Source: Candidatus Aphodovivens excrementavium
GTDB taxonomy: Bacteria > Actinomycetota > Coriobacteriia > Coriobacteriales > Eggerthellaceae
Reading direction: 5' to 3'
Assembly: GCA_018715935.1 (NCBI GenBank)
Contig: DVKR01000018.1
Span: 1 to 64,000, forward strand
Length of the DNA stretch: 64,000 bases
Shown: piece after piece, positions 33,838 through 50,580 of the stretch
Layout: each line of letters starts with the position of its first letter
How positions within the stretch are numbered: the first letter of the stretch is position 1
The notes under the pieces: generated by a model
Databases searched by the model: none
What the model was told of the DNA's origin: nothing
The model's input: only the letters and a program-made list of their open reading frames with translations
Translations under genes and position numbers: made by a program

Positions 33838-34506
33838 CTATCGCGCTCTCTGTGCGTACCGGTTGATGGGGTGCGCCTGGATGATTTCGAACAGCGATTC
33901 TTGCAGTGCGTTGACAAAGGGGTTAACGCGCTCGTCGAGCAGGCTTTTCTGCATACTGGGGTTTTGAAGGAAAAACTCGACCGTTCCCACCAAGCTGCGC
34001 ACACTTAAGGTGGCAACCAGGGCAAGGGTTTCTTTTGGCATGTAGCGCCCATCAAGGATGAACGTTATGTCGTCGACGAGCAGGGGGTAGTACATGCGCT
34101 CTACCGTGCCCACGAACTCGGGTTCCATGACCGTGAACAGCTTGCGGTAAAACGTAGGGTCAGATGCAACGCACTGCAACAGCCCTTTCATGAACAGGCT
34201 GGCATCAAGGGTGCGCGCGCCAATTTCAATATGGGAGTACAGCGCAAGTTCCTGCGGGATTCGCTTGCTGAAAGGCATGCTGACAAGCTGCTCTTTCGGC
34301 AAGAGCTCGCACAGCTGATCGTGGAGGGCTCGGCGAAACACCCAAAGCGCCGTTTCGTGTTTGCTGGAGAAGTGGTAGTAGTAGGTGTTCCGATTGATGC
34401 CGAGCTGTTCGATGAGATCGGCAATGCGCACGCGCGAAAGCGACGTTTTCCGTACGGCATCTACAAAGGCGTCGGCTATCAGCTGACGCGTGTCTCGCTT
34501 CGCCAT
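33838..34506 (-). CDS. TetR family regulator, divergent from the dehydratase module
   Basis: The 222-residue protein starts MAKRDTRQLIADAFVDAVRK and has a TetR helix-turn-helix (RIADLIEQLGINRNTYYYHFSSKHE), in the DhaS-like group. The ATG at 34506 is used because GAAAGG precedes it by about 9 nt; the longer form from 34542 would run over the promoter-side inverted repeat. It is divergent from the CoA-transferase gene and is the best local candidate to control the module. Confidence 0.85.
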   Translation of the reverse strand: MAKRDTRQLIADAFVDAVRKTSLSRVRIADLIEQLGINRNTYYYHFSSKHETALWVFRRALHDQLCELLPKEQLVSMPFSKRIPQELALYSHIEIGARTLDASLFMKGLLQCVASDPTFYRKLFTVMEPEFVGTVERMYYPLLVDDITFILDGRYMPKETLALVATLSVRSLVGTVEFFLQNPSMQKSLLDERVNPFVNALQESLFEIIQAHPINRYAQRAR

Positions 34507-34898
34507 AACAGTGCCTTTCTCTGATTCTAGATATACCTTCATTCTATCTAAAATGGTTCTGGAGAGAGAAGAGGTTGCGACTAAACGATTTAGTTTTTGA
34601 GGCTGATGGAACTAGGCAGATGGCAAAACCGCCTATTATTTTGCTGCCGACGAAGAGCGTGCCTTTGCAGTGTGGCGAACAAGTTTGGCATGGCGTTCAC
34701 TGGCAACGGAGTTCTGCTGCCGTTTTTGTGCTTAGCGATAGACGTATTGTGCTTTTGTCCAATGACAAAGGCGGATGGAGTTCGCACAATAATCTTAGGT
34801 CGAATTGCGGATTTCACGTTGCGGCGCGCGGCTGCTTTGTCTAACGCGGCGCATCTTCGGAGTCCGTCCGACAACGACACGCACAAGAAGGAGGAAAC
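34507..34898. promoter_or_regulatory. TetR/CoA-transferase control region with operators and promoter P1
   Basis: Three inverted repeats are present: TAGATA-N11-TATCTA (34528-34550), ACTAAA-cga-TTTAGT (34580-34594), and TTTGTC-caat-GACAAA (34754-34769). The last is part of the box TTTTGTCCAATGACAAAG (34753-34770), which covers the -35 (ATGACA 34762-34767); 17 nt later comes -10 CACAAT (34785-34790). The same box with the same spacing recurs at 41732, and a variant at 46975. The ribosome site is AAGGAGG. Confidence 0.75.
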
Positions 34899-36143
34899 AT
34901 GGCAGATATCGCGCGTCCCCTGGAGGGCGTCAAGGTCATCGAGCTGGCGACGTTCATCGCCGTGCCCGCTGTCGGCCGCATTTTGGCAGACATGGGTGCC
35001 GAGGTCATCAAGATCGAAACAGCGAAGGGCGACAATTTGCGCTACACCGCGGCAAATGAAGGACGTCCGAGCGATTCTCATGAGGATATTACGATCGATT
35101 TGGAGAATGCCAACAAAAAGGGCATCGTGGTTGACCTCCGCACCGAGAAGGGCATCGAGGTCTTGTTCAAGCTTTTGGAAGACGCCGACGTTCTGCTGAC
35201 CAACTGGCGCCCGCAGGCGCTTGAGCGCAAGCATCTCACCTACGAGGATTTGAAAGAGCGCTTCCCCCGCTTGGTGTATGCAAGCCTTACCGGCTTTGGC
35301 GAAAAAGGCCCCGACAAAGATCTGCCCGGGTTCGACTTCACGGCGTTCTTCGCGCGGTCTGGCTGGGCGGGCTCGCTGTTCCAGCGCGGCACCGTTCCCA
35401 CCAACCTGATTCCGGCGCTGGGCGACCATCAGGGTGCGCTCGCTTTGACCGCTGGCGTACTGGGCGCTCTGTACCGCCAGGCTCGCACCGGCAAAGGCGA
35501 GAAAGTCACCACCAATCTGTTGCATACCGCCATCTGGGTTCAGGGCTTCTCCATCCAGGCGGCTCAGTACGGCACCGAGTTCGGAGGTCAGGTGTTCCCG
35601 TTCGACCGTCGCGACAACCAGCTGCCCTACCAGCCCGCCGTGGAGACGAAAGACGGCCGCTTCTTCCAGGTAATGGGCCCGAACTACGCCATTTACTTCC
35701 CGAAGATCATGCAGGCCATCGGCCGTGAAGACCTCATCGACGATCCGGTGTTCAGCGACCAGAAGAAGATGCTTGAACAGCATCGTCAAGGCGAGCTCTA
35801 CGACATCATCCAGAACGGCTTCAAGCAGAAGACCGTGGAAGAGTGGGAGCCCATTCTCACCGAGCTGGACATTCCTTATGCGCTGTGCAAGACCTACGCC
35901 GAAATCGTCGATGACGAGCAGGCATGGGCAAACGACGTGTTCTACAAGATGGACTACCCGCGCGGCCCGAAGGCGCTGGTGCGCGTGCCCATTACCTTTG
36001 AAGAGACGCCGCTGCCGCCCTACGAGAAGGCCCCGCTTATCGGCGAGGACTCCGAAGACGTATTGGCAGACCTAGGCTACACGCCCGAGGAAATCAAGGC
36101 CATGGAAGACGAGGGCGTCGTCACCCAGGGAGAACGCAAGTAA
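34899..36143 (+). CDS. Family III CoA-transferase, HadA/FldA-like
   Basis: The 414-residue protein is a CaiB/BaiF family CoA-transferase: RPLEGVKVIELATFIAVPAVGRILADMGAEVIKIE at the start (given as the family pattern G-V-x-V-x-E-L), the GEKGP-x-K-D-x-PGFD-x-TA-x-FAR stretch typical of HadA/FldA, and the catalytic Asp in PALGDHQG (D176). Such enzymes move CoA between a product acyl-CoA and a 2-hydroxyacid. It is first in the operon with both dehydratase subunits. The substrate (2-hydroxyisocaproate, aryl-lactate, lactate or other) cannot be read from sequence. Confidence 0.9.
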   Translation: MADIARPLEGVKVIELATFIAVPAVGRILADMGAEVIKIETAKGDNLRYTAANEGRPSDSHEDITIDLENANKKGIVVDLRTEKGIEVLFKLLEDADVLLTNWRPQALERKHLTYEDLKERFPRLVYASLTGFGEKGPDKDLPGFDFTAFFARSGWAGSLFQRGTVPTNLIPALGDHQGALALTAGVLGALYRQARTGKGEKVTTNLLHTAIWVQGFSIQAAQYGTEFGGQVFPFDRRDNQLPYQPAVETKDGRFFQVMGPNYAIYFPKIMQAIGREDLIDDPVFSDQKKMLEQHRQGELYDIIQNGFKQKTVEEWEPILTELDIPYALCKTYAEIVDDEQAWANDVFYKMDYPRGPKALVRVPITFEETPLPPYEKAPLIGEDSEDVLADLGYTPEEIKAMEDEGVVTQGERK

Positions 36144-36146
36144 CTA

Positions 36147-36300
36147 GTTCCGCCGTTCTGACGAACGGCGGAACGTGCCGACGCTGCGGCCGCCTGGGGC
36201 ACCCGGCCTTCGCGCGATCCCGAAGGCTTGCGTACCAAAGTACGCGGCGCCTTCGCGATCCCGCGAATTCCAGGCACCCCAGGCGCCCTCGCTGGCTTAT
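36147..36300 (+). repeat. Palindromic dispersed element, copy 1 (in the dehydratase operon)
   Basis: It begins just after the CoA-transferase stop with a perfect 12-bp hairpin, GTTCCGCCGTTC (36147-36158) and GAACGGCGGAAC (36163-36174), loop TGAC. Next come TGCCGACGCTGCG, then a larger inverted repeat (GCCTGGGG near 36190, CCCCAGGC near 36280) around the central palindrome GCGTAC-caaa-GTACGC (about 36229-36244). Copy 2 at 55125 has the same anatomy. It may fold in mRNA and separate the expression levels of neighbouring genes. Confidence 0.8.
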
Positions 36301-36377
36301 GCTCAACCTGCGAGCTTTCGTTCAACTTGGAAGTTATTATTTCTAGCCGTATCCAACAATCTCAAGAGGGGGATTAC

Positions 36378-37604
36378 ATGGCTGAAGAAACCGCTGAGAA
36401 GCTGCCGGCGGGCAAGTGGCTTGCCAAGATCGCCGACAGCGTGTACGAAGACGCGCTTGCCGCGAAGGCGCGCGGCGAGAAGGTGGGTTGGATCTCGTCC
36501 AACTTCCCGCAAGAGATTCCCGAGACGCTGGGGCTGCACGTGGTATATCCCGAAAGCCAGGCTGCCGCCATCTCGGCCAAAGGCGCCGGCCTTGCGATGT
36601 GCGAACACGCAGAGGGCGAGCTGGGCTATTCCAACGACCTCTGCGCCTATGCGCGCATCAGCCTTGCCTATGCCGATTTGGGCAAGTGCCCCAACGGCGA
36701 GCGCGATATGCCGCTGCCCGACTTCGTGCTGTGCTGCAACAACATCTGCAACTGCATGATGAACTGGTACGAGAACTTGGCACACGAGCTGGACATTCCG
36801 CTGATCATGATTGACGTGCCGTTCAACGACAAGTACAGTGCCGACGCCAAGCGCATTGCGTATATGCGCGGCCAGTTCGATGCCGCTATCGAGCAGTTGT
36901 GCGAGATCACCGGCAAAACATGGGACGAGAAGCGCTTCGCCGAGGTGTGCGAGATCTCCAATGCGGTAGGCGAGAAATGGCTTGAGGCCACTACCTACAT
37001 GAACTACAAGCCCTCGCCGCTTAAGGGCTACGACCTGTTCAACCACATGGCGGTTGCCACTATGGCGCGCGGCAAGAAAGAAAGCCTCGAGGCGTTCACC
37101 GCGCTGGTGGAGGAGTACAAAGAGGCTGTCAAAAACCACACCTCCACGTTCAAGGTGGAAGAGAAGAACCGCATCATGTTTGAAGGCATTGCCACCTGGC
37201 CGTATCTGCGCGTGACCTACTCCACGCTGAAGAATGCCGGCACCAACGTAACTGCCTGCGTCTACGGTCCGTCGTTTGCCTTTACCTACGGCAACACCGA
37301 CGAGATGATGCGCGCCTACGCCGAGGTGCCCAACGCCATCAACCTGGAGCGCGCTGTTGAGCTGCGCAAGCAGCTGTGCCTGGACGGTAAGGTCGACGGC
37401 GGCCTGGTGCACGTCAACCGTTCCTGCAAGATGTGGTCGGGTATCGCTCCCGAGATGGGTCGCCGCATCGCAAACGACCTGAACATTCCCGTGGTCACCT
37501 TCGACGGCGACCAGTCAGACCCGCGCAATTTCAGCGAGGCTCAGTACGTCACGCGCGTCCAGGGTCTGGTGGAGATCATGGAATCCAACAAGAAGGAGGC
37601 GTAA
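36378..37604 (+). CDS. 2-hydroxyacyl-CoA dehydratase, alpha subunit (HadB/FldB-like)
   Basis: The 408-residue protein belongs to the HgdB/FldB family. Candidate [4Fe-4S] ligands are C89 (SNDLCAY), one of C119-C126 (LCCNNICNC), and C350 (NRSCKMWSG). With the next gene it forms the heterodimer that removes water from (R)-2-hydroxyacyl-CoA by a ketyl radical route after one-electron activation. The ATG at 36378 follows GAGGGGG; an in-frame ORF upstream reads through the palindromic element and is not credible. It is 3 bp from the beta subunit. Confidence 0.92.
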   Translation: MAEETAEKLPAGKWLAKIADSVYEDALAAKARGEKVGWISSNFPQEIPETLGLHVVYPESQAAAISAKGAGLAMCEHAEGELGYSNDLCAYARISLAYADLGKCPNGERDMPLPDFVLCCNNICNCMMNWYENLAHELDIPLIMIDVPFNDKYSADAKRIAYMRGQFDAAIEQLCEITGKTWDEKRFAEVCEISNAVGEKWLEATTYMNYKPSPLKGYDLFNHMAVATMARGKKESLEAFTALVEEYKEAVKNHTSTFKVEEKNRIMFEGIATWPYLRVTYSTLKNAGTNVTACVYGPSFAFTYGNTDEMMRAYAEVPNAINLERAVELRKQLCLDGKVDGGLVHVNRSCKMWSGIAPEMGRRIANDLNIPVVTFDGDQSDPRNFSEAQYVTRVQGLVEIMESNKKEA

Positions 37605-37607
37605 GAA

Positions 37608-38738
37608 ATGGCCGATATCGCATCTCTGCTGGGCGCCTTCTCTGAGGCCGCCGCGCATCCGAGCAAAGAGCTTGAAAAGCATCTGGCAGCCGGTAAGCGC
37701 GTCATCGGCGTCGGTCCGTATCACGTGCCCGAGGAGCTGGTGTATGCCGCCGGTGCCGTTCCGTTCGGCGTGTGGGGCATGGTTGGGCCTGCTTCCGAGG
37801 CGAAAAAGTACTTCCCGCCGTTTTACTGTTCTATTTGCCAGATGACGCTTGAGATGGGCATGACCGGCGTGCTGGACAAGCTGTCGGGCATGATGATCAC
37901 CGGGTTGTGCGACACGCTGCGCGCGTTCTCTCAGAACTGGAAGGCGGCAATGGGCAACAAGGTGCCCATGATCTATGTCACCAATGCCCAGAACCGTTAT
38001 CTGGAGGCAGGGCGAACCTATACGATTGAGGCGTATACCGAGGTAAAGCGCCGCGTGGAGGAATGCTGCGACACCATCATCGACGACGATGACCTGATGG
38101 CGGCTATTAAGCTCTACAACCAGTGGCGCGCTGCCATGCGCGAGTTCGTGAAGCTGGCAGGAAGCCATCCTGCCGAAGTGAGCAACACGGCACGCGTTGC
38201 CGTTGTCAATGCGGGATATTACATGGACAAAGCCGAGCATTTGCAGAAGGTTCGCGAACTCAACGATGCGTTGGCGCAGCTTCCTGAGTCTGCCGAGGGC
38301 TACCGCAAAGTCGTGCTTTCGGGCATCTATGAGGACATTCCCGCCATTACGTCAATCTTGGAAGACAGCAAGATCGCCGTGGTTGCCGACGACCTGGCTA
38401 AAGAGTCCCGCGCGTTCGCGCGCCAGGTTCCCGAGGAGGGAGACCCCATCGAGGCGCTGGCCGACGGCTGGTGCTCGCTGCGCGCCGACACCGAGCTCTA
38501 TGATCCGAAAAAAGAGCATATCGACGCGCTCGTGCAGAAGGCAAAGGACTCCGGTGCGCAGGCGGTCATTATCCTTTTGGCCAAGTTCTGCGACCCCGAG
38601 GAGTTCGAGGCACCGCTGGCCACGCGTGCTATTCGCGACGCCGGTCTGAAGTGCATCACGGTGGAGATCGACCAGTCCACCGAAAGCTACGAGCAAGCGC
38701 GCACCCAGGTGGAAACCCTTGCCGAGTTGATCGGATAG
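37608..38738 (+). CDS. 2-hydroxyacyl-CoA dehydratase, beta subunit (HadC/FldC-like)
   Basis: The 376-residue partner subunit has the family N-terminus (KRVIGVGPYHVPEELVYAAGAVPFGVWG) and cluster Cys candidates C74, C77 (YCSICQ), C101 (GLCDTLR) and a later Cys in LAKFCDPEEF near residue 310. Its start is AAGGAGG-spaced within the alpha-subunit end. The terminator at 38781 closes the three-gene operon. The ATP-dependent activator it needs is encoded about 4.3 kb downstream under a related promoter. Confidence 0.92.
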   Translation: MADIASLLGAFSEAAAHPSKELEKHLAAGKRVIGVGPYHVPEELVYAAGAVPFGVWGMVGPASEAKKYFPPFYCSICQMTLEMGMTGVLDKLSGMMITGLCDTLRAFSQNWKAAMGNKVPMIYVTNAQNRYLEAGRTYTIEAYTEVKRRVEECCDTIIDDDDLMAAIKLYNQWRAAMREFVKLAGSHPAEVSNTARVAVVNAGYYMDKAEHLQKVRELNDALAQLPESAEGYRKVVLSGIYEDIPAITSILEDSKIAVVADDLAKESRAFARQVPEEGDPIEALADGWCSLRADTELYDPKKEHIDALVQKAKDSGAQAVIILLAKFCDPEEFEAPLATRAIRDAGLKCITVEIDQSTESYEQARTQVETLAELIG

Positions 38739-38780
38739 GATGCTTCAGATCGAGCGATCTTGTTCGTTTTGCCTAATGGT

Positions 38781-38819
38781 GCCCCGTTGGCCGTTCGAGC
38801 GGTCGGCGGGGCGCGTTTT
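38781..38819 (+). terminator. Terminator of the CoA-transferase/dehydratase operon
   Basis: GCCCCGTTGGCCG (38781-38793) pairs, with two G-U pairs, with CGGTCGGCGGGGC (38800-38812), followed by GCGTTTTG. Confidence 0.75.
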
Positions 38820-39007
38820 GTATGTGCTGCTGTGTTAGCGAGTCAGCGGTTTCGCACGCCAACACTTTACGATTTTATCTAGTGACAGGGGGCGGCTCAG
38901 CGTCCACAATGAAGGTGTCGCAACCCTGCGATTTCGAGCGCTGCGGAGGGTTGCGGTGGGCGTCGACAGGGGGATCGAAGCGACCGAACGCATGAAAGGG
39001 GAGTTTC

Positions 39008-40291
39008 ATGTTCATCCAGTTTCCGGAAGTTCACGTGGCCGTGCAGGGGCTTGACGAGGTCGAGCTGCCTGAGATGGTAACTATTCGCCAGCGCTATGAC
39101 GCAGCGAAAATCGACGATGTTGAGGGTGCGCTGCGCGGCCAGCTTGAGGCACTGCCCAGCCATGGCTTCTATGACGGCAAGCGCATTGCCATTACGGTGG
39201 GAAGCCGAGGCATCCCCCATCTTCCGGAAATGGTGCGCACGATCTGCGACGTGCTCAAAGAGTGGGGCGCGCAGCCGTTCGTCGTGCCGGCAATGGGAAG
39301 CCACGGCGGCGCCACTGCGGAAGGCCAGCTTGAGATGCTTGCCGGCTACGGCGTTACCGAGCAGGCAATAGGTTTGCCCATCGTGTCGAGCATGGACGTT
39401 GTTTCGTATGCGCAGCTAGACGGCGAGCCTCTCTACTGCGACAAAGCGGCATTCGAATCTGACGGCATCGTCGTGTTCAACAAGGTAAAGCCTCACACCG
39501 ATTTTCGTGGCCCGCACGAGAGCGGTTTGGCAAAAATGATGGCAATCGGCATTGCGAAGCACAAAGGGGCGGCGTCGCTGCATTCTTTCGGGTTCCACAC
39601 CTTCACCGAGATGGTTCCCCGCGCCGCCGAGCTGTTTTTGCAGAACTGCCCGGTGGCGTTCGGCGTGGGCGTGGTGCAAAACGCCTACGACGACATTTGC
39701 TGCATTGAGGCATGCACGCCCGATGCGATGATGGAAACCGACGCGCGTCTTTTGGAAATGGCTAAAGACCGCCTCGCCAAGTTCAAGTTCGGCGGCTGCG
39801 ACCTTTTGATCGTGGAGCAGATAGGTAAGAACTTCAGCGGCAACGGCCACGACCCCAACGTTACCGGCAGATCCATCACTCACTCGTGCAACGACGTGTT
39901 CAACGCGAAAAAGATGGTGGTTTTGGGGCTTACTTCCGAGTCGCACCACAATGCAGCTGGGCTTGCCATGGCAGATTGCACCACGCGCAGGGTGCTCAAC
40001 AATGTTGATTGGGAAGTCACCTGGGCAAACACGCTTACTACCGGAGTCACGAGCGCGTGCGCTATCCCGCTGTACACTAACACCGATCTTGAGGCGATCA
40101 AGGTATGCCTTCGCTCCTGCTATAGGCTCGACTACCCGAACGCGCATATCGTGCGCATTAAAAACACGATGGAGCTGCATGACATTCAGGTGTCTGAAGC
40201 GCTCTACGAAACCATCAAAGACCGTGACGACGTCGAACTGGTAAGCGGGCCGCAACCGTTTGCCTTCGACGAGGAGGGGTTTCTTGAGTAG
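39008..40291 (+). CDS. LarA-superfamily protein, candidate nickel-pincer 2-hydroxyacid racemase/epimerase
   Basis: The 427-residue protein matches the lactate-racemase N-terminal domain (DUF2088) superfamily, in a branch with the motif VKPHTDFRGPHESGLAKM (residues ~160-177). Residues that could match LarA functional positions are R67 (SRG), H99 (GSHG), H163 (KPH), a Lys near 176-184 and H192. LarA uses a nickel-pincer cofactor made by LarB/C/E; none of these genes is in the window. Next to a dehydratase that needs the R isomer, interconversion of 2-hydroxyacid isomers is the natural guess. AGGGGAG precedes the ATG. Confidence 0.8.
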   Translation: MFIQFPEVHVAVQGLDEVELPEMVTIRQRYDAAKIDDVEGALRGQLEALPSHGFYDGKRIAITVGSRGIPHLPEMVRTICDVLKEWGAQPFVVPAMGSHGGATAEGQLEMLAGYGVTEQAIGLPIVSSMDVVSYAQLDGEPLYCDKAAFESDGIVVFNKVKPHTDFRGPHESGLAKMMAIGIAKHKGAASLHSFGFHTFTEMVPRAAELFLQNCPVAFGVGVVQNAYDDICCIEACTPDAMMETDARLLEMAKDRLAKFKFGGCDLLIVEQIGKNFSGNGHDPNVTGRSITHSCNDVFNAKKMVVLGLTSESHHNAAGLAMADCTTRRVLNNVDWEVTWANTLTTGVTSACAIPLYTNTDLEAIKVCLRSCYRLDYPNAHIVRIKNTMELHDIQVSEALYETIKDRDDVELVSGPQPFAFDEEGFLE

Positions 40292-40400
40292 CGCGTGGCG
40301 GCAATGACGGCGGCAACTGCGAATACGCCGCACGCGCGGCGGCAATCGCACGTGCGGCGCCAATGATGAGGAATGCTTTCTTGAGTAGTGCGCGGAGGGG
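40280..40400 (+). repeat. Copy of the larA-like gene end 97 bp downstream
   Basis: TTTCTTGAGTAG, the last codons and stop of the upstream gene (40280-40291), recurs at 40377-40388 followed by the similar GTGCGCGGAGG. The intervening sequence holds GCGGCGGCAAT-like partial repeats. Confidence 0.65.
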
Positions 40401-40421
40401 CAGCGTGCGGAGGGGTCTCAT

Positions 40422-40452
40422 TTGACCTGGAGTAGAGTCCAGGTAGTATCGT
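40422..40452 (+). promoter_or_regulatory. MerR-type promoter of the aldo/keto reductase gene
   Basis: TTGACC (40422-40427) and TATCGT (40447-40452) are 19 nt apart, the overlong spacing of MerR-controlled promoters. The spacer holds the perfect inverted repeat ACCTGGA-N6-TCCAGGT (40425-40431 and 40438-40444), the usual CTGGAGT-type MerR operator. No merR gene is in the window. Confidence 0.75.
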
Positions 40453-40488
40453 CCGCTTAGACAACCAAGCGGCAGAGGAGGACTTCTC

Positions 40489-41583
40489 GTGCAATATCGA
40501 GCATTGCCCCACGGCGGGGAGAAGATCAGCATTATCGGTCTGGGGATGGGCTCCATCCATCGGGCGAGCGTGGAAGAGACCGAGCGCACGGTGCGCACGG
40601 CAATTGACGCCGGCATCAACTACCTCGATTTCATTCCCAGCGAGGCGGTGGCTTTCGAGGGGTATGCCCGTGCGCTGCGCGGGCAGCGCGAAAAAGTGAT
40701 GCTGCAGGTGCATTTGGGCGCCAGCTATTCCACCGGAACGTATGGGTTTACTACCGATCCGAAGGTGGCGCGACGCGAGTTCGAGGCACGCCTGCGCTCG
40801 CTCGATACCGACTACGCCGATTTCGGATTCATCCACTGCATTGACGAGGATGCCGACTTCGACAAAGTAATGAATGGTCCTACCTGGGACTACGCGCAGC
40901 GTTTGAAGCGGGAGGGGGTAATCCGCCACCTGGGCTTCAGCACGCACAGCGTAGATATCGCGCGCCGTTTTCTTGCGACGGGCGAGATGGACATGGGCAT
41001 GTTCAGCATCAACCCCATGTACGATTACACCTCCGAGTCGAGCTACGGCAAGGGCGAGGCCGACGACCGCGCCGCTCTCTACCGAGAGTTCGAGAGCGCG
41101 GGCGTGGGCATTTCGGTAATGAAGGCGTTTGCGGGCGGGCAGCTGCTCGACGCGCGGCAGAGTCCGTTTCGCGCGGCATTGACGCAAGAGCAGTGCATCC
41201 AGTATGCGCTCGACCGACCTGGCGTGCTGACGGTGCTGCCCGGAGTGCGCGGCATGGACGACCTGACAAGGCTGCTTGCGTTTCTGGATGCGCCGGCCGA
41301 AAAGCGCGACTATTCGGTGCTGGGCAGCATGACGCCTAAGACCCAAGCGGGTATGTGCGTGTATTGCAGCCACTGCCAGCCGTGCCCTGAGGGCATCAGC
41401 ATCGGCATGGTCAACAAGTTCTACGACCTTGCGCGTCTTGGAGACGAGATGGCGGCGCAGCATTATCGCGATTTGGAAACCCCCGCTTCCGCCTGCATTG
41501 CGTGCGGCCACTGCGACAGCCGCTGTCCTTTCGGCGTGCACCAAAGCGCCCGCATGCAGGAAATTGCCGCGTATTTCGACTAG
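40489..41583 (+). CDS. Aldo/keto reductase-fold protein with two C-terminal [4Fe-4S] sites and a degenerate catalytic tetrad
   Basis: Residues 1-~270 are an aldo/keto reductase barrel (ISIIGLGMGSIHRA; HLGFSTHSVDIARR). Residues 285-350 carry C290/293/296/299 and C336/339/342/346, enough for two iron-sulfur clusters. Aligning the usual Asp-Tyr-Lys-His tetrad gives D47, E52 in place of Tyr, H75 in place of Lys, and H116. NADPH-ketone reduction by the standard mechanism is therefore doubtful; an electron-transfer role is possible. Its promoter is of MerR type, separate from the module's shared promoters. Confidence 0.82.
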   Translation: MQYRALPHGGEKISIIGLGMGSIHRASVEETERTVRTAIDAGINYLDFIPSEAVAFEGYARALRGQREKVMLQVHLGASYSTGTYGFTTDPKVARREFEARLRSLDTDYADFGFIHCIDEDADFDKVMNGPTWDYAQRLKREGVIRHLGFSTHSVDIARRFLATGEMDMGMFSINPMYDYTSESSYGKGEADDRAALYREFESAGVGISVMKAFAGGQLLDARQSPFRAALTQEQCIQYALDRPGVLTVLPGVRGMDDLTRLLAFLDAPAEKRDYSVLGSMTPKTQAGMCVYCSHCQPCPEGISIGMVNKFYDLARLGDEMAAQHYRDLETPASACIACGHCDSRCPFGVHQSARMQEIAAYFD

Positions 41584-41650
41584 GAAAGCGCAGCAAGAGA
41601 GGCTAGAAAAGCGCAGAATAGAGACTAGGGAAGCGCAGTAGTAGAAGTAA
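41580..41650 (+). repeat. 22-23-bp tandem repeats starting at the aldo/keto reductase stop
   Basis: Units at 41580-41602, 41603-41624 and from 41625 each begin CTAG and contain AAGCGCAG. The first includes the gene's TAG stop. Confidence 0.85.
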
Positions 41651-41716
41651 TAGAGAAGGCGGAAAGGCCTTTCTCTGCGAAGCAGACGGCTCCTTTCTCA
41701 CGTCCGGCAGTTCATT

Positions 41717-41769
41717 TTGGACGAATTGATATTTTGTCCAATGACTTACCGGAGCTTTGAGCACACAAT
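41717..41769 (+). promoter_or_regulatory. Promoter P2 with the shared TTTTGTCCAATGAC box
   Basis: TTTTGTCCAATGAC at 41732-41745 is identical to the box at 34753, and the preceding GACGAATTG matches GACGTATTG there. The -35 is ATGACT (41741-41746), the spacer 17 nt, and the -10 CACAAT (41764-41769), the same hexamer at the same distance as P1. TTGGAC (41717-41722) and GTCCAA (41736-41741) add an inverted repeat. Confidence 0.8.
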
Positions 41770-41818
41770 GTAGGCAAGTGCAAAAGCTGCTGCCGTGCAG
41801 CGTGAGAAAGGACACAGC

Positions 41819-42973
41819 ATGGATTTCAATCTGACCGACGAGCAAGAGCTGCTTGTTGATAGCATCAAGGAGTTCTGTGAAATTCATTTCAACGAGCAGA
41901 AGGTCAAGGACATGTACGCTGCCGGCGGCGTCACCGACGATTTGGTGCAGGCGTATCTGGAGTCCGGCTTTGGCTTGATGGGCATTCCCGAGGAGCTGGA
42001 CGGTGTTCCTTGCGACCGCGTGACGCTGGGTCTGCTCACTGAGGAGTTTGCGCACTACGCTGGCTGCCTGACCCCGTTTTTGAACAACACGCTCGCCATG
42101 CGCGATCTGATCGACTTCGGTTCGCCCGAGCAGGTCGAGATGGCCATGAGCGCCTACATGGAAACCGGCAAGCCCATTTTCTCGCTGGGCTTCTCTGAGC
42201 CTGGAGCCGGCTCCGACAACGCTTCTATGACGTCTGTCACCAAGAAGCAGGAAGACGGCACCTACATCCTGAACGGCCAGAAAACGTGGGTTACCCAAGG
42301 CGAGGTCTTCCCCTACGTTTTGGTAATCGCGAAAGACGAAGACCCCGATCCGCAAAACCGCTCGATGACCATGTGGCTGGTTCCCCGCGAGCTCGACGGC
42401 GTTTCCACGGCGCCTCTGCACAAGCTGGGTCAGCAGATCATCCCGTTTTGCGAGATGTACTTCGACGACGTGGTGCTTACCGAAGACATGCGCGTTGGCG
42501 AGTACGGCAAGGGTTTCTACAACCTTATGAAGAACTACGAAATGGAGCGCTGCCTAATCATCGCGCAGACCCTCGGTTGCGCGCAGGCTGCCATGGACGA
42601 CGCCGCCGCTTACGTGAACGAGCGCATCACCATGGGCAAGCCGTTGGCGTATCGCCAGCTCATTCAAGAAAAGCTGACCGACATGGAAACCAAGCTGCAG
42701 AACACGCGCAACATGCTGTACCGCACGCTGTGGAAGATGGACAACGATCAGTCGGTGCGCATCGATTCCGCATTGTTGAAGCGCTACGGCGCACGCGCTT
42801 GCACCGAGGTGGCATCCGAGGCGCTGCAGATCTACGGCGGCCTGGGCTACACCACCGAAACGCGCGTTGGACGTATTTGGCAAGACCTTCGCGGCAACCA
42901 GATTGCGGGTGGCACCGACGAGATCATGGTCTACATCGCCGGCCGTCAGCTGGCAAAGCAATACGCCAAGTAG
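41819..42973 (+). CDS. CaiA-like acyl-CoA dehydrogenase (likely enoyl-CoA reductase), catalytic Glu replaced by Gly
   Basis: The 384-residue flavoprotein closely follows CaiA (crotonobetainyl-CoA reductase): MDFNLTDEQELLVDSIKEF at the start, SEPGAGSDNASM flavin loop, and QLIQEKLTDMETKLQNTRNMLY. Where most acyl-CoA dehydrogenases have the catalytic base in EGT, it has GGTDE, like CaiA. That fits a one-way reductase using ETF electrons. The ATG has AAAGGA 6 nt upstream. It leads a likely operon with the activator, ligase and second dehydrogenase. Confidence 0.9.
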   Translation: MDFNLTDEQELLVDSIKEFCEIHFNEQKVKDMYAAGGVTDDLVQAYLESGFGLMGIPEELDGVPCDRVTLGLLTEEFAHYAGCLTPFLNNTLAMRDLIDFGSPEQVEMAMSAYMETGKPIFSLGFSEPGAGSDNASMTSVTKKQEDGTYILNGQKTWVTQGEVFPYVLVIAKDEDPDPQNRSMTMWLVPRELDGVSTAPLHKLGQQIIPFCEMYFDDVVLTEDMRVGEYGKGFYNLMKNYEMERCLIIAQTLGCAQAAMDDAAAYVNERITMGKPLAYRQLIQEKLTDMETKLQNTRNMLYRTLWKMDNDQSVRIDSALLKRYGARACTEVASEALQIYGGLGYTTETRVGRIWQDLRGNQIAGGTDEIMVYIAGRQLAKQYAK

Positions 42974-43045
42974 GATCCGCTGATCTGCCGACCGGCGAAA
43001 GCGCGCTTTGAACCGTTTGCTTTGCGACTCAGAAAGGACAGGGGA

Positions 43046-43834
43046 GTGGCAGAAAAGACGTATTACCTTGGCATCGACGTCGGGTCTACTGCGTCGAAGT
43101 GCGTGATTGCCAACGCCTCTGGCGAGATCGCGGGCAAGGGTCTTGCGGGCTCGGGCGCGGGAACCGTCGGCCCTAAAACAGCTGTTGATGCGGCGCTTGC
43201 CGATGCGGGCGTAACCATGGACGATATCGCCGCTTCGTGCGCCACGGGCTATGGGCGCAATCTCATGGAGTGGGCAGACACTCAGATGTCCGAGCTGTCG
43301 TGCCATGCAAAGGGCGCCGCTCAGCTGTTTCCCGGCGTGCGTACCGTAATCGACATCGGCGGCCAAGATGCAAAAGTGCTCTCGATAGGCTTTTCGGGCG
43401 ATCTGGAGAACTTCGTGATGAACGATAAATGCGCCGCCGGCACGGGGCGCTTTCTCGACGTGATGGCTTCCATTTTCGGCTGTAAGGTGTCCGATTTGTC
43501 GGGCTATGACGCACAGTCCAGCGAAGTGGCTCCCATATCGTCAACCTGCACCGTGTTCGCCGAGTCGGAAGTTATCTCCAAATTGTCCGAAGGCGTCGCG
43601 ATTCCCAATATTGTTGCCGGAATTCACACTTCGGTGGTGGAGCGAACTGCAGGGCTAGCGCGCCGGTTGGGAGTGAAGGCGCCGGTCGTGATGACTGGTG
43701 GCGTGGCGCTCAACGAGCGCTTGCGCGACAGGTTGGCAGACAAGCTGGGAACAGATATTCAAACGAACGAAGATTCCCAGTTCATTGGCGCGTATGGGGC
43801 TGCTTTGCATGCGCATGAGAAGGCGAGGTCCTAG
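43046..43834 (+). CDS. 2-hydroxyacyl-CoA dehydratase activator ATPase (HadI/FldI-like)
   Basis: The 262-residue ASKHA-fold ATPase has YYLGIDVGSTASKCVI at the start, DIGGQDAKV, and the bridging-cluster Cys C129 (NDKCAAGTGRFLD) and C168 (SSTCTVFAESE); one [4Fe-4S] is shared across the homodimer. It drives one electron from reduced ferredoxin or flavodoxin into the dehydratase using ATP. GTG at 43046 is the start, with AGAAAGGA about 8 nt before it. Its separation from the dehydratase genes is unusual but it shares their type of promoter. Confidence 0.93.
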   Translation: MAEKTYYLGIDVGSTASKCVIANASGEIAGKGLAGSGAGTVGPKTAVDAALADAGVTMDDIAASCATGYGRNLMEWADTQMSELSCHAKGAAQLFPGVRTVIDIGGQDAKVLSIGFSGDLENFVMNDKCAAGTGRFLDVMASIFGCKVSDLSGYDAQSSEVAPISSTCTVFAESEVISKLSEGVAIPNIVAGIHTSVVERTAGLARRLGVKAPVVMTGGVALNERLRDRLADKLGTDIQTNEDSQFIGAYGAALHAHEKARS

Positions 43835-43989
43835 TGTCTGCGCGCAGCATGAGCCAGCGGCTTCTGCTCAGCTGCGGGTTGCGGAATGCTGCCGCTATGC
43901 GCCGTGCGCCCTACGCAGTCACGTGCTAAGCGGTCAGCTGCCAGCTGCCGGAAGCTATCGTTGATGTGATGTCGGAAAGGGAAGATGCG

Positions 43990-45582
43990 ATGGAATCTCA
44001 GCACGCGCCAGGGATTCAAACGCCCCCGTTCTCGGTTGCCCGATTCATCTGCGAGGGGTACGAGCTTGATCCTTTCAAGCAGATGGTTGTGGGGATGAAC
44101 GAAGGCATCACCTACGCCGAGGCGTATCGGCGCATGCTTTCGCTTGCAAACTACCTCTCAGACGAATGCGGTGTGCGCGCGGGCGACGTCGTGATGGTGG
44201 CGGCGCCTAACATCGTCTCCTACTTTACGCTTATCGGCTCGGTGCAGCTGGCAGGGGCTACGGTGTCACTGATGTCGCCAACGGTCGAGCGGGTTGAGTT
44301 CGAGGGGATATACGCGCGCGTGCATCCGCGCGTTGCCATCGTGTCGACGCAAGCCCATTGCGCGTTTGCGGCCGAATGTGCTTCCGACACTACCGTTCTT
44401 ACCATTGGGTGTTCGGAGGAAGGCGTCGCCTCGGTTGAGAGCGCTTGGCGCACGGGTGCCACCTGGAGCAAGCCCGCTTCTCAAGACGACCCGAAAGTCA
44501 TCTTGTTCACCTCGGGGTCTACGGGAACCCCCAAGGCGGTTCAGCTGCGCGGTTCGTCGTTTTGTCGCCATGCGCGCGAGCTCACCGCTGCCTTGGAGGT
44601 GCGGCAAGGCGAGGTATTCTTTATCCCCGTTCCCTTTGCGCACGTTTACGGTGTGGTTGGCTTGCATCTCGCTTTGATGCATCATGCCACCGTTGCTACG
44701 CTCGTGAAATATCGGCCGGAAATGGCGCTTTCGCTTATCACCTCGGCACGCGCAAACGTGTATTTGGGCGTGTCCACTATGTACCTGCGCGAACTGCGTG
44801 AAAATCTAGACGGCGAGTGGGATCTGAGTTGTTTGCGCGCGGGGCTGGTTGCCGGCGCGTCAAGCCCGCTGGCGGTGTTTGAGGAATACCAAGAAAAATA
44901 CGGCGCCACTCTGGTGAACTCCTACGGCATGACCGAGACGGCGGCAACGCTTACGGTGGGAAGGCTTACCGACCCGCTGCGCGAGCGCGCCGCTACCGTG
45001 GGACTTCCCATTGCGGGCGCTGCCGTGCGCACCGCTCCGCTCGGGCAAGCGGAAGAGCGGCTCGCCTGCCCCTTCCCCGCAAATTCCGACGGAAGCTGGC
45101 CTCGGGGCGAGCTGGTGTGCAAAACCCCGTCCCTCGCTGACGGCGTTGTTGGGGCCGATGGAAAGCTTGTCCGGCTGCTTGATGCAGAGGGCTGGCTGCA
45201 CACCGGAGACATTGGCTGGGTTGATGCGCAAGGCTATGTGTGGGTTGACGGCCGAGTGAAAGACATGATCATTCGCGGAGGCATCAACATCTATCCGGCC
45301 GAGGTGGAAAACACTTATCAAAACCATCCGCAAATCGCCGAGTGCTGTCTGGTTGGGTATCCCGACCCCGATTTAGGCGAGCGCACCTGCCTGTGCGCCA
45401 TCATGAACGAAGACGCAACCGTGTCGGCATTCGAGCTGCGCGAATACGCCAAGGGGCGCATCGAAAAATGCAAGATTCCCGACTTGGTGATGAAGATGGA
45501 CGAATTCCCTCGTTTGGGGAATGGTAAAATCGACAAGAAAACGCTGGAAGCCCACGTCAAGGGCATGTTATGTCCGTCCTAG
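43990..45582 (+). CDS. AMP-forming acyl-CoA synthetase, CaiC-like
   Basis: The 530-residue ANL-family enzyme activates a carboxylic acid to its CoA ester with ATP. Visible motifs are the P-loop FTSGSTGTPKAVQ, the A5-type YGMTETAA, the hinge HTGDIGWVDAQGYVWVDGRVKDMI, and the catalytic Lys in GNGKIDKK near the C-terminus. The ATG at 43990 follows AAGGGAAG; ATGs at 43966/43969 are alternatives. In the cai operon the equivalent ligase primes the cycle that the CoA-transferase then sustains. Substrate unknown. Confidence 0.9.
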   Translation: MESQHAPGIQTPPFSVARFICEGYELDPFKQMVVGMNEGITYAEAYRRMLSLANYLSDECGVRAGDVVMVAAPNIVSYFTLIGSVQLAGATVSLMSPTVERVEFEGIYARVHPRVAIVSTQAHCAFAAECASDTTVLTIGCSEEGVASVESAWRTGATWSKPASQDDPKVILFTSGSTGTPKAVQLRGSSFCRHARELTAALEVRQGEVFFIPVPFAHVYGVVGLHLALMHHATVATLVKYRPEMALSLITSARANVYLGVSTMYLRELRENLDGEWDLSCLRAGLVAGASSPLAVFEEYQEKYGATLVNSYGMTETAATLTVGRLTDPLRERAATVGLPIAGAAVRTAPLGQAEERLACPFPANSDGSWPRGELVCKTPSLADGVVGADGKLVRLLDAEGWLHTGDIGWVDAQGYVWVDGRVKDMIIRGGINIYPAEVENTYQNHPQIAECCLVGYPDPDLGERTCLCAIMNEDATVSAFELREYAKGRIEKCKIPDLVMKMDEFPRLGNGKIDKKTLEAHVKGMLCPS

Positions 45583-45597
45583 GAGGATGTTGGCGCC

Positions 45598-46806
45598 ATG
45601 ATCTCTATCGAGCTGACTGCAGAGCAGAAAGACGCGATTGCTGCGGTGGACGCGTTTTGCGACCGCTATTTCACCGAAGACGCCATTAAGCAGTGGTGCA
45701 AATCGCGCGGGGTGCCTTCCACGGTCTACAACGCCTTCTACGAGAGCGCGCTGGGGAAGTACTGCCTGCCGGAATATCTTGGCGGCAGGGAATGCTCGCT
45801 TGCGGAGAAGTCTGCGGTAATTGCGCGGCTGTGCCACCGAGCAGGTGCAATGCTCCCCTTCGTGAACGACATGCTTTCCATGACGCTGCTCGACAGCATG
45901 CGCGAGGTGTCGCGGCGCGAAGTGGTGGAAGAGCTGCTCACCAAAAGCGGCCACGTGATGTTTTCGGAGGCGTTTTCGGAGGCGCGCGCCGGCAGCGATG
46001 CGTCTGCCGTGCAGACAATTGTGAGCGTAGAGCCCGATGGCGTGTTTCTGGACGGAGAGAAGTCGTTCGTTTCAGGCGGGCAGTTTTCGCCCGAGGCGCT
46101 GGTGCTGGCGCGCGACCCCGTGCACGGGCTTGAAGACGGAGGGCTTTCCCTGTGGCTTGTTCCCATCGACGAGCCAGGGGTGTCCACATACCCGCTCGAG
46201 ACGGTGGGCCAGGCGATGACGGCGCCGGCAACGCTGAAGTTCGACCATGTTGAGCTGCGCCCCGAGCAGCGAATTCAAACGCAGGGCAAGCTGGACGCCA
46301 TGCTTAAGCGCCAATACGAACTCGGACGTATTCTCATCTGCGCCGCTAGCATGGGCTTGGCTTTGGCGGCCATGGACGATGCGCTCGACCATGCCAACGA
46401 CCATATGGTAAAGGGCCAGACTCTGGGCACCCTGCCTCAAATTCGCGAGAAGCTCGCCGATATGGAGGTGCGCAACCGCGCAATGTGCCAGCTGGTATAC
46501 GTTGCGGCAGATTCGGTGGACAAGGGCCTGCAGCGCTGCCATCTCGACTGCGCATTGATGAAGCGTGCGGTTCCGCGTATGGCAACCGAGGTGGCGTCTG
46601 AGGCATTGCAGATCCTTGGCGGCAGAGGCTACACCAACCAATCGCGCGTGGGCCGAATCTGGCAAGACTGCCGCGGAAACCAGATTGCTCAGGGGACCGA
46701 CGAAGTCATGGTTCACCTTATCGCTAAATCGTTGATGGCAAATCGAGCTTCCGAGCGCCGTGTTGCCGAAGAGCGCATTCAACAGGCGCGGACAGAGCAA
46801 GAGTAG
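45598..46806 (+). CDS. Second CaiA-like acyl-CoA dehydrogenase, catalytic Glu replaced by Gln
   Basis: The 402-residue paralogue keeps the family order: LTAEQKDAIAAVDAF, SEAFSEARAGSDASAV, QIREKLADMEVRNRAM, and GRGYTNQSRVGRIWQDCRGNQ. The base position reads IAQGTDEV, Gln instead of Glu, while the first paralogue has Gly. The C-terminal ~15 residues are extra. It starts 15 bp after the ligase stop with AGGAGG. The two may act on different acyl chains, or together as a heteromer; sequence cannot decide. Confidence 0.88.
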   Translation: MISIELTAEQKDAIAAVDAFCDRYFTEDAIKQWCKSRGVPSTVYNAFYESALGKYCLPEYLGGRECSLAEKSAVIARLCHRAGAMLPFVNDMLSMTLLDSMREVSRREVVEELLTKSGHVMFSEAFSEARAGSDASAVQTIVSVEPDGVFLDGEKSFVSGGQFSPEALVLARDPVHGLEDGGLSLWLVPIDEPGVSTYPLETVGQAMTAPATLKFDHVELRPEQRIQTQGKLDAMLKRQYELGRILICAASMGLALAAMDDALDHANDHMVKGQTLGTLPQIREKLADMEVRNRAMCQLVYVAADSVDKGLQRCHLDCALMKRAVPRMATEVASEALQILGGRGYTNQSRVGRIWQDCRGNQIAQGTDEVMVHLIAKSLMANRASERRVAEERIQQARTEQE

Positions 46807-47145
46807 CGCATATTGTCGCATCCGAGCTTGCGAACGCATTCAATTGTAAGAGGGCGCGCAGCGTAATAGCGCTTATGCTCTCGCGCTTTGCGCAAGATCT
46901 CCTGCGCGCTGGAATGCTTCGTGCCAAAACGCGATCTACCAGCTCCTTTAGTTCGAATTCAATACAGAAACGAGTTTTGCCCAAACAAAAGCATTCGGGC
47001 GCTTTTTATAATCTCTCATAGAGAAGGAGTGCCCCTTTTGAGGGCAGTGCCTTCGCAAGGGAAGTCAGTCCGAGCCTGTAGTGCAGGCGTGCGCTGCCCA
47101 GTGCAAAGCTTCTGTGCAAAGCGCAAGGAGAAAGGTTAGGCACTT
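46807..47145 (+). promoter_or_regulatory. fixA leader with promoter P3
   Basis: A consensus -10 TATAAT lies at 47007-47012. TTTTGCCCAA starts at 46975, exactly 32 nt before it, the same offset as the box in P1 and P2; ACAAAAG completes a TTTTG-N6-CAAAA inverted repeat. A ~130-nt leader follows to fixA. An 83-codon ORF over this region has no recognisable family and runs through the promoter, so it is not called. The left ~160 bp shows nothing further. Confidence 0.7.
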
Positions 47146-47892
47146 ATGAAGATCGTTGTACCTTGCAAAGTGGTTGCCGACGATAAAGACATCGTTGCGG
47201 CTGCAGACGGCTCGCTTGATTTCAGCAAGGCGAAGCCGATCATTTCCACCTACGACCTAAACGCCATTGCCGCCGCAGCCGAGTTGGCAAAAGCCAACGA
47301 GGGCAGCTCGGTTAAGGCGATTACGGTGTGCTCCGCTGCGGCAGGGGCAAACACCAAGCTGCGCAAAGACATCATCGCCCGCGGCACCGAAGAGCTGCTG
47401 ATGACGGCAGACGACGCGGTTGCCGACTTGGACGCGTTCGCCACGGCCGCCGAGCTGAAGAAGCTGGTGGAAAAGGCCGGCGGATTCGATTTGATCGTCT
47501 GCGGCGACGGCTCTGCCGATCTGTACGCCAAGCAGACGGGCGTCCAGCTGGCCGCCGCTTTGGATGTTCCCTATCTTTCCGAAGTGATTTCTGTAGAGGC
47601 TGCCGGCGAGAAGATCGTGTGCAAGCGCATGCTGGCCACCGAGGTTGAGACCGTTGAGGTTCCGCTTCCTGCAGTTATTGCCGTCACCCCCGAGATCGCG
47701 CAGGCAAAGCCCAATTCCATGAAAGACATTTTGGCTGCCGGAAAGAAGCCTCAACTGGTTGAGGCTGCCGAGGATCCCGCTGTTGCGGTTGTTGAGACGG
47801 TTGCCATAAAGGCGCCTGCGCAGGCAGATCGCGCATGCCAGCTGTTCGAGGACGTTGACGAGTTCGTTGCCGCCGTGAAGGCCGCGCTGTAG
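47146..47892 (+). CDS. fixA: Electron transfer flavoprotein beta subunit, FixA type
   Basis: The 248-residue protein has the ETF-beta fold markers: MKIVVPCKVVADDKDI, YDLNAIAAAAELAKAN, and DLIVCGDGSADLYAKQTGVQLAA. It binds the AMP or second FAD and docks acyl-CoA dehydrogenases. Gene order fixA-fixB-fixC-fixX follows, so the complex is of the FixABCX kind rather than a plain ETF. Such complexes can split NADH electrons between quinone and ferredoxin; bifurcation here is inference. Confidence 0.88.
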   Translation: MKIVVPCKVVADDKDIVAAADGSLDFSKAKPIISTYDLNAIAAAAELAKANEGSSVKAITVCSAAAGANTKLRKDIIARGTEELLMTADDAVADLDAFATAAELKKLVEKAGGFDLIVCGDGSADLYAKQTGVQLAAALDVPYLSEVISVEAAGEKIVCKRMLATEVETVEVPLPAVIAVTPEIAQAKPNSMKDILAAGKKPQLVEAAEDPAVAVVETVAIKAPAQADRACQLFEDVDEFVAAVKAAL

Positions 47893-47918
47893 GTAATCGA
47901 TAGGAAGGACTTAAAGAT

Positions 47919-48806
47919 ATGAAGGCTTTCGTTCTTGCTGAAACCGAATCCGCCGCGCGCGAGCTGTGCGCCGGCGCCCGCACTCTTGCCGACGAGGTGG
48001 TTCTGGTCAAGTTCGGCGCACCGGTAACGGGCGTTGCCGATATGTGCCTTACCGTTGCCGTTCCGGAAGGAGCGGTGGCAGACGACGCTTACGTTACCGT
48101 CAACGCGGCGTTTGATGCGCAAGGCGCGTCTGTTGTGCTTGCCGAGCCCGCCGCTTCCATTCTTTCGGTAGTTGGTCGCCTTGCGGCGCATCTGGGCACT
48201 GCCGCTATCACCGACATCCAGTCTGTTTCCGACGGCGTGGCAACCAGCATGTATTTTGGCGGCGTTGGCGTGCGCGAAGCAAAGGCAACCGGCGACGTTG
48301 CGGTGTACACCGTAGCCGCAGGCACGTTCGATGGCTCTGCCGCGACGGGCGGCGACGCGGTTGAGGAGCTTGCGTGGCAGGCACCTGCTTCGGCGCTGGT
48401 GAAAGTGGGTTCCGAACAGCTTCCTCCGTCTGACGTGAACCTGCAAGGCGCCGATGTTGTCATAGGCTGCGGTCGCGGTTTCTCCCAAGAGGACGATTTG
48501 CAGATGGCGCGAGACCTTGCTGCCCAGACCGGTGGCGAGCTTGCTTGCACGCGCCCGCTCACCGAAGGTGTCGATTGGTTCCCGCGCGAGGCGTACCTGG
48601 GCGTTTCCGGCCAGATCATCGCACCGAAGGTGTATTTCGCACTCGGTCTTTCCGGCCAGATGCAGCACATGGTGGGCGTTGCCAAAGCCGGCACCATCAT
48701 TGCGATCAACAAAGACAAAAACGCACCGGTGTTCAAGCAGTGCGACCTTGGGTTCGTAGGCGACCTGAAGACGGCGCTTCCGGCGCTTACCAACGCTTTG
48801 GCATAA
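47919..48806 (+). CDS. fixB: Electron transfer flavoprotein alpha subunit, FixB type
   Basis: The 295-residue subunit has the C-terminal FAD domain motif run GRGFSQEDDLQMARDLA, TRPLTEGVDWFPREAYLG, SGQIIAPKVYFALGLSGQMQHM and INKDKNAPVFKQCDLGFVGD. The N-terminal half is shorter than in some ETFs. The GLSGQMQHMVG form and the EGVDWFPRE stretch resemble FixB/YdiR proteins. It lies 26 bp after fixA with an AGGAAGGA site. It should carry electrons to FixC or from it to the CaiA-like enzymes. Confidence 0.88.
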   Translation: MKAFVLAETESAARELCAGARTLADEVVLVKFGAPVTGVADMCLTVAVPEGAVADDAYVTVNAAFDAQGASVVLAEPAASILSVVGRLAAHLGTAAITDIQSVSDGVATSMYFGGVGVREAKATGDVAVYTVAAGTFDGSAATGGDAVEELAWQAPASALVKVGSEQLPPSDVNLQGADVVIGCGRGFSQEDDLQMARDLAAQTGGELACTRPLTEGVDWFPREAYLGVSGQIIAPKVYFALGLSGQMQHMVGVAKAGTIIAINKDKNAPVFKQCDLGFVGDLKTALPALTNALA

Positions 48807-48863
48807 ACCAAGGCCGAGGGCTGCCGTTGCGGCCTCTCTTGACGCCGATCCCTTAAACAATCT

Positions 48864-48955
48864 GGAGGCGGGGCTCTGAAGTGCGCGCCGCCTCCGGGGT
48901 TTTGCGACTATTCCATCCCGCAAATGCGGGAAAGGACTCTCTTCGCGTTTTTTTT
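48864..48955 (+). terminator. fixB-fixC intergenic hairpins and T-run
   Basis: GGAGGCGG (48864-48871) pairs with CCGCCTCC (48888-48895), then GGGGTTTTG. A second small hairpin CCCGC-aaat-GCGGG (about 48917-48930) is followed 15 nt later by an unbroken ten-T run near 48950. Either could lower read-through into fixC; a full stop between fixB and fixC would be surprising. Confidence 0.5.
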
Positions 48956-48988
48956 TTCAAAATGGCAATCTGCAGGAAAGGAGCGGTG

Positions 48989-50284: not shown

Positions 50285-50580
50285 AGCCAGTAAGTGAGAT
50301 CACAGTCAACGTTGACGAGCTGCTCAGCGTCAACAAATACGAGGTTGACGAGGAAAGCGCCCATATCGAGCTGGTTGACGAGCCCTCCGACGAGGAGTTC
50401 CGCAAGCTTGTGCTGCTCTGTCCTGCCGCATTGTACAAAGTGGACGAAGAGGGCAATAAGACCTTCGACTATGCCGGATGTCTTGAGTGCGGCACGTGCC
50501 GCATTGCTTGCGAAGGCACTATCGTCAAGAAATGGGAAAACCCTCAACCCACCATGGGTGTGGAATATCGCTTCGGCTAG
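50281..50580 (+). CDS. fixX: FixX ferredoxin-like protein
   Basis: The 99-residue protein starts at a GTG that overlaps the fixC stop. Cys47 (LLCPAALY) and C67/C70/C73/C77 (CLECGTCRIAC) give one [4Fe-4S] cluster, as in FixX and the C-terminus of ETF-quinone oxidoreductase. It should link FixC to quinone or ferredoxin. A strong terminator ends the fix operon. Confidence 0.92.
   Translation: MKPVSEITVNVDELLSVNKYEVDEESAHIELVDEPSDEEFRKLVLLCPAALYKVDEEGNKTFDYAGCLECGTCRIACEGTIVKKWENPQPTMGVEYRFG

Follow-up and report, generated by a model that had tools for sequence, protein, structure and literature searches.

Are the genes for 2-hydroxyacyl-coenzyme A (CoA) dehydration, enoyl-CoA reduction and FixABCX-type electron transfer in Candidatus Aphodovivens excrementavium controlled as one unit, and by which regulator? 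The question is raised by a stretch of 64,000 nucleotides (nt) of this bacterium (Eggerthellaceae; assembly GCA_018715935.1, contig DVKR01000018.1, positions 1 to 64,000), referred to here as the window, in which a TetR-family gene at 33838 lies beside a dehydratase gene module. An initial annotation of the window had proposed that hydroxyacid activation, enoyl reduction and FixABCX form one regulon, possibly run by this TetR protein. The proposal was well supported by the promoter spacing in a sister species (G018), by the co-occurrence of regulator and cluster and by a promoter geometry that recurs across families. Judged from these sequence comparisons, a pathway-specific TetR regulator, probably an activator, is likely to control the module through a predicted 21-bp operator.

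The box, the operator and their distance from the −10

Upon re-reading of the sequence, TTTTGTCCAATGAC was found at 34753 and 41732 and TTTTGCCCAAACAAAAG at 46975, all as annotated. The −10 hexamers (CACAAT at 34785, CACAAT at 41764 and TATAAT at 47007) each begin 32 nt past the first T of this box, and the GACGwATTG motif and 17-nt −35/−10 spacer reported for sites 1 and 2 are common to both. The pattern TTTTGYCCAA has three matches in the window versus 0.27 expected, only at these three positions. In the 2.08-Mb genome it occurs 11 times and a reversed control pattern 16 times, so the box alone is not enriched. The distance sets the three sites apart: none of the eight remaining copies, mostly in coding-looking sequence, has a −10-like hexamer at +32, and the recurrence at unrelated promoters that would have spoken against the annotation was thus not seen. 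Exact matches to box-N22-YAYAAT number three genome-wide, all in this module, versus none in 300 first-order Markov resamplings of the window. A chance likeness among AT-rich promoter sequences is a practically negligible explanation. The box is short and the reversed pattern also has genome-wide background matches, but resampling yields none and the fixed spacing is conserved in the sister species and across families.

The TTTG/CAAA-type dyad that had been described at each site did not hold up, as its half-spacing is unlike between sites 1 and 3 and it is broken in site 2; not being kept from site to site, it was ruled out as the operator. The conserved symmetry is a 21-bp inverted repeat that extends 13 nt further upstream than the box, with the box as its right half and GACGwATTG as its left half. 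Its consensus is RGRCA-N11-TGYCY (with outer bases TAGRCA-N11-TGYCTA), and exactly 24 nt separate its end from the −10. Operators 1 and 2 (AGACGTATTGTGCTTTTGTCC and GGACGAATTGATATTTTGTCC) are inverted repeats of the form RGAC-N13-GTCC. Three strong sites and one weak site of the module have this operator at the equivalent promoter position.

In 18 tabulated sites the dyad was invariant at C4, T17, G18 and C20, as was the −10 at A2 and T6. When dyads with at most one mismatch were compared over 22 offsets, the best −10 was located at offset 24 in 16 of 23 dyads. After collapsing related promoters this was 10 of 17, with a p-value of about 5e-10 that is approximate, all offsets being taken as equally likely. 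The 24-nt spacing was set from the window alone, ahead of reading other genomes; the operator consensus was refined partly on the same sequences, and its exact form is therefore partly fitted.

The box might instead be an extended core-promoter element in promoters copied from one another, since it abuts the −35, is locked to the −10 and sites 1 and 2 have 14 identical bases in common. This is very improbable: no other promoter of this form was found in the genome, the symmetric left half is present in distant genera and the sequence of the 24-nt linker is not conserved. Two further candidates were rejected, namely TTGTCC as a −35, which would put 24 nt between it and the −10, and an alternative sigma factor or UP element, the form being absent from all other promoters of the genome.

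Conservation of the operator with the TetR gene

The box was looked for in related genomes as the annotation had proposed. Among named genomes, that of Candidatus Aphodovivens avistercoris is the closest, with HadB 96% identical. In G018 all three sites are kept at exactly 32 nt (TTTTGTCCAA with CACAAT, TTTTGCCCAA with CACAAT and TTTTGCCTAA with TATAAT), while the promoter regions have diverged outside the box. With at most one mismatch allowed, the full pattern matched nowhere in G018 but at these three sites, whereas G000 gave the three plus two background-looking matches.

The operator and its 24-nt geometry recur at homologous clusters of genera g24, g27 and g44 and families f4 and f9, where they precede genes for CoA-transferase, acyl-CoA synthetase, acyl-CoA dehydrogenase and fixA. 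Other genera show cleaner dyads than operators 1 and 2. Examples are AGACACATTTCGATTATGTCT-N24-CACAAT before the acyl-CoA synthetase gene of G125 and AGACATATCGACAATCTGTCT-N24-CACAAT before the CoA-transferase gene of G120. Other families of the same order have AGGCAGAAACAGAAGCTGCCT-N24-CACAAT and AGACAATACTGAGATATGTCC-N24-CAAAAT (G367) and AGGCAGAATTACAATCTGTCT-N24-CACAAT (G410). In three genomes the fixA promoter has a perfect dyad, with TAGTGT (G125), TAGTGT (G117) and TACTCT (G367) at 24 nt. As a separate observation, G014 (L047, 5375-5755) carries two TGAACWWGTTCA palindromes and one GTCTAG-N6-CTAGAC besides its operator, which suggests a second regulator there.

Among 140 genomes of the family, orthologues of the CoA-transferase (at least 57% identity) were found in ten (G000, G018, G063, G117, G125, G014, G071, G070, G038 and G120), and fragments of it in G118 and G123. 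The same ten genomes carry intact TetR orthologues (E<1e-30; 10/10; Fisher p 2e-14, or 1e-12 with the fragments counted against). The eleventh TetR match comes from G019, a genome without the cluster, and its DNA-binding domain is missing. In this genome, of the same genus as the window, the remnant (L105, 8912-9484) is decayed while the adjacent TetR and transporter genes are intact. A class-wide search added G367 and G410, in which the TetR gene is divergent from the CoA-transferase gene, and the exact operator/−10 pattern was present in 4 of 11 TetR-positive versus 5 of 389 TetR-negative genomes of the class. Across species the operator is thus conserved together with the regulator, with exceptions in G014 and G038 and more weakly in G070. 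G410 also has two more TetR paralogues (L119, L120), one beside other CoA-transferase/dehydratase-like genes and one near a contig end, which suggests a wider regulator family for such clusters.

In G018 the tetR gene has stayed at an ancestral TetR-TetR-transporter locus, also present in G019, and 35 kb separate it from the cluster. The boxes are nonetheless there, so mere proximity to tetR does not explain their retention. The G018 cluster itself (L104, L044) is on the same contig as tetR and is without the aldo/keto reductase gene, suggesting a move or re-insertion within the genus. The 35-kb distance, together with other TetR genes with DhaS-like DNA-binding domains in the genome, would also fit a real operator that is the target of another regulator encoded elsewhere. 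This is improbable: the TetR gene studied here co-occurs near-perfectly with the cluster, in most genomes it is divergent and adjoins the operator, and the copy in the genome that lost the cluster no longer encodes a DNA-binding domain.

The TetR protein and its predicted mode of action

The protein gave clear phmmer matches to solved TetR proteins, the best in the PDB being 4mk6 and 2iu5 (DhaS), and a TetR_N match whose 19.7 bits fall short of the gathering score (24). The recognition-helix core NRNT[FY]YY is invariant in 12 of 12 intact orthologues, which outside the genus are otherwise about 40% identical. These matches and the conserved helix place it in the TetR/AcrR superfamily, with its N-terminal helix-turn-helix and all-helical C-terminal domain. 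The match to the DhaS model TIGR02366 is partial (43.7 bits versus a cut-off of 129, confined to residues 18-79 of the 234-residue open reading frame), and the protein was filed under the TetR superfamily, not as DhaS, because this cut-off was not reached. A single-sequence structure model was helical but of low confidence (pLDDT, the predicted local distance difference test score, 50.7) and too poor for a fold search.

In Lactococcus lactis the dha operon is activated by DhaS, a TetR-family protein, as summarised in PMC6534649 (citing Christen et al. 2006). By sequence DhaS has the closest characterised DNA-binding domain, in a TetR-family protein that acts positively. Similarity is confined to the first ~60 residues; DhaS serves dihydroxyacetone kinase genes whereas the window TetR is predicted to serve hydroxyacyl-CoA genes, and no DhaQ-like co-regulator was noticed here. 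The DhaS operator is reportedly GGACACAT-N6-ATTTGTCC, like AGACACAT...TGTCT in the window, a likeness that serves as a lead.

We infer that a TetR dimer binds RGRCA-N11-TGYCY before three operons (CoA-transferase/dehydratase, acyl-CoA dehydrogenase 1 and fixABCX) and has a weaker site before the larA-like gene. With the first −10 base taken as −12, the operator spans about −57 to −37, adjoining the −35 without covering it. At most promoters of this type the −35 matches only 1-3 of the 6 consensus bases. The rigid distance, the upstream position of the operator and the weak −35 argue for an activator that touches the polymerase, since repression by blocking would require none of these. The bound dimer would most likely recruit RNA polymerase to these promoters in the presence of a pathway compound, and would thereby switch 2-hydroxyacid activation, dehydration, enoyl-CoA reduction and electron bifurcation together.

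The same TetR protein could, on the same operator, act as a repressor that hinders polymerase beside the −35 and is released by an acyl-CoA or hydroxyacid of the pathway. Repression is the commonest mode in TetR proteins, promoters 1 and 2 have good −35s and the dyad at the start of the TetR gene itself fits autorepression. Nevertheless this is rather unlikely: the operator stops before the −35 and leaves the −35/−10 core uncovered, an identical 24-nt spacing in three families is not required for occlusion, the −35s are mostly poor and the DNA-binding domain is closest to that of an activator.

Several points weigh against an activating TetR regulator of the module. Most TetR proteins are repressors, this one is far below the DhaS family cut-off and the genome has several other TetR genes. 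Activation is less compelling at promoters 1 and 2 of genus g1 because their −35s are good (4-5 of 6 matches). As to the operators, the left half is poor at fixA and at larA, the perfect dyad before the CoA-transferase gene of G014 is without a −10 at 24, the site is displaced by 2 nt in G038 and the match in G070 is weak.

Two further sites should be added to the predicted regulon, the promoter of the larA-like gene at 38873, as a weaker member, and tetR itself. The former, TTTTATCTAGTGACA with CACAAT at 32 nt, was found by a box/−10 scan allowing three mismatches, and TTTTAACCCGTGACA with CACAAT at 32 nt was read before larA in G018. This racemase-promoter site is weaker evidence because of its poor left halves, and its likeness to the other promoters stems partly from the −35 GTGACA. 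TetR may also control its own gene through the site at 34528-34550; dyads of equal geometry lie near the TetR start codon in G071 and G367 as well.

Two other symmetric sequences lie in this region. Between the TetR and CoA-transferase genes, ACTAAACGATTTAGT (34581-34595) is a perfect 15-bp palindrome; it was rejected as the cluster operator, not being seen at the other module promoters. The dyad AGGCAGATGGCAAAACCGCCT at 34614-34634 has one mismatch to the operator and is without a −10 at 24 nt, and is possibly an auxiliary site.

Gene content and comparison with known systems

The features of the module are given in the table. Its two dehydratase subunits (HGD-D matched twice) and activase (TIGR00241), all above cut-offs, place it among the Had/Fld-type dehydratase pathways.

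Features of the TetR gene, the predicted operators and promoters, and the dehydratase module (positions in the window)
Feature	Position	Strand	Remarks
TetR-family regulator, DhaS-like DNA-binding domain, predicted module regulator	33838..34506	-	TetR_N, phmmer
Predicted autoregulatory operator	34528..34550	.	TAGATA-N11-TATCTA, −44 to −22 from TetR start codon; operator-like geometry
Operator 1 (predicted)	34740..34760	+	AGACGTATTGTGCTTTTGTCC; right half is the box TTTTGTCC; identical in sister species G018
Promoter 1	34762..34790	+	−35 ATGACA, 17-nt spacer, −10 CACAAT
Family III CoA-transferase	34899..36143	+	CoA_transf_3, 304.9 bits
2-Hydroxyacyl-CoA dehydratase subunit, HadB/FldB-like	36366..37604	+	HGD-D; HadB 473 bits vs cut-off 750
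2-Hydroxyacyl-CoA dehydratase subunit, HadC/FldC-like	37608..38738	+	HGD-D; below HadC equivalog cut-off
Fourth promoter, weaker	38860..38910	+	CAACACTTTACGATTTTATCT, N24, CACAAT; −35 GTGACA; before larA-like racemase
Nickel-pincer cofactor-dependent isomerase (racemase), LarA superfamily group 22	39008..40291	+	NF052515, 491 bits vs cut-off 400
Aldo/keto reductase, C-terminal 4Fe-4S domain	40489..41583	+	
Operator 2 (predicted)	41719..41739	+	GGACGAATTGATATTTTGTCC; outer bases TTGGAC-N13-GTCCAA
Promoter 2	41741..41769	+	−35 ATGACT, 17-nt spacer, −10 CACAAT
Acyl-CoA dehydrogenase 1, YdiO/CaiA-like, presumed enoyl-CoA reductase	41819..42973	+	
Dehydratase activase, HadI/FldI-like	43022..43834	+	TIGR00241, 252 bits vs cut-off 125.4
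AMP-forming acyl-CoA synthetase	43966..45582	+	
Acyl-CoA dehydrogenase 2	45598..46806	+	
Operator 3 (predicted)	46962..46982	+	ATACAGAAACGAGTTTTGCCC; left half weaker; G018 counterpart GTACAGATGCCCGTTTTGCCT
fixA promoter −10 TATAAT	47007..47012	+	−35 poor: AACAAA
fixA-fixB-fixC-fixX-like electron-transfer flavoprotein (ETF) genes	47146..50580	+	Pfam ETF, ETF_alpha, FAD oxidoreductase/ETFQO; fixX assigned by synteny and homology only

The module resembles the Had ((R)-2-hydroxyisocaproate) and Fld/AcdA (phenyllactate) reductive Stickland clusters of clostridia in its CoA-transferase, two-subunit dehydratase and activase, and further in its acyl-CoA dehydrogenase and electron-transfer flavoproteins. 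It differs in that its proteins are HadBC-like but below the HadB/HadC equivalog cut-offs, and in the addition of a nickel racemase, an aldo/keto reductase and FixCX. No described regulator of this type for Had/Fld clusters was found in the literature searched. With the enterobacterial cai/fix and ydi sets the module has in common a CaiA/YdiO-like acyl-CoA dehydrogenase, a FixABCX-like set and a family III CoA-transferase, whereas those sets are without a radical dehydratase and their known regulators are of other types.

Whether the regulator represents an undescribed class of TetR activators, present in at least three families of one Coriobacteriia order, which would control hydroxyacid reduction together with FixABCX from an operator at 24 nt and sense a CoA ester or hydroxyacid, is evenly balanced. 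The finding would give a regulator, an operator sequence and a promoter geometry for 2-hydroxyacid reduction by gut bacteria in which regulation is little described. It would also be a case of a TetR protein that activates from a rigidly spaced promoter site, the less common mode in a family consisting mostly of repressors. From genome sequence one could then predict the regulon and whether the pathway is present.

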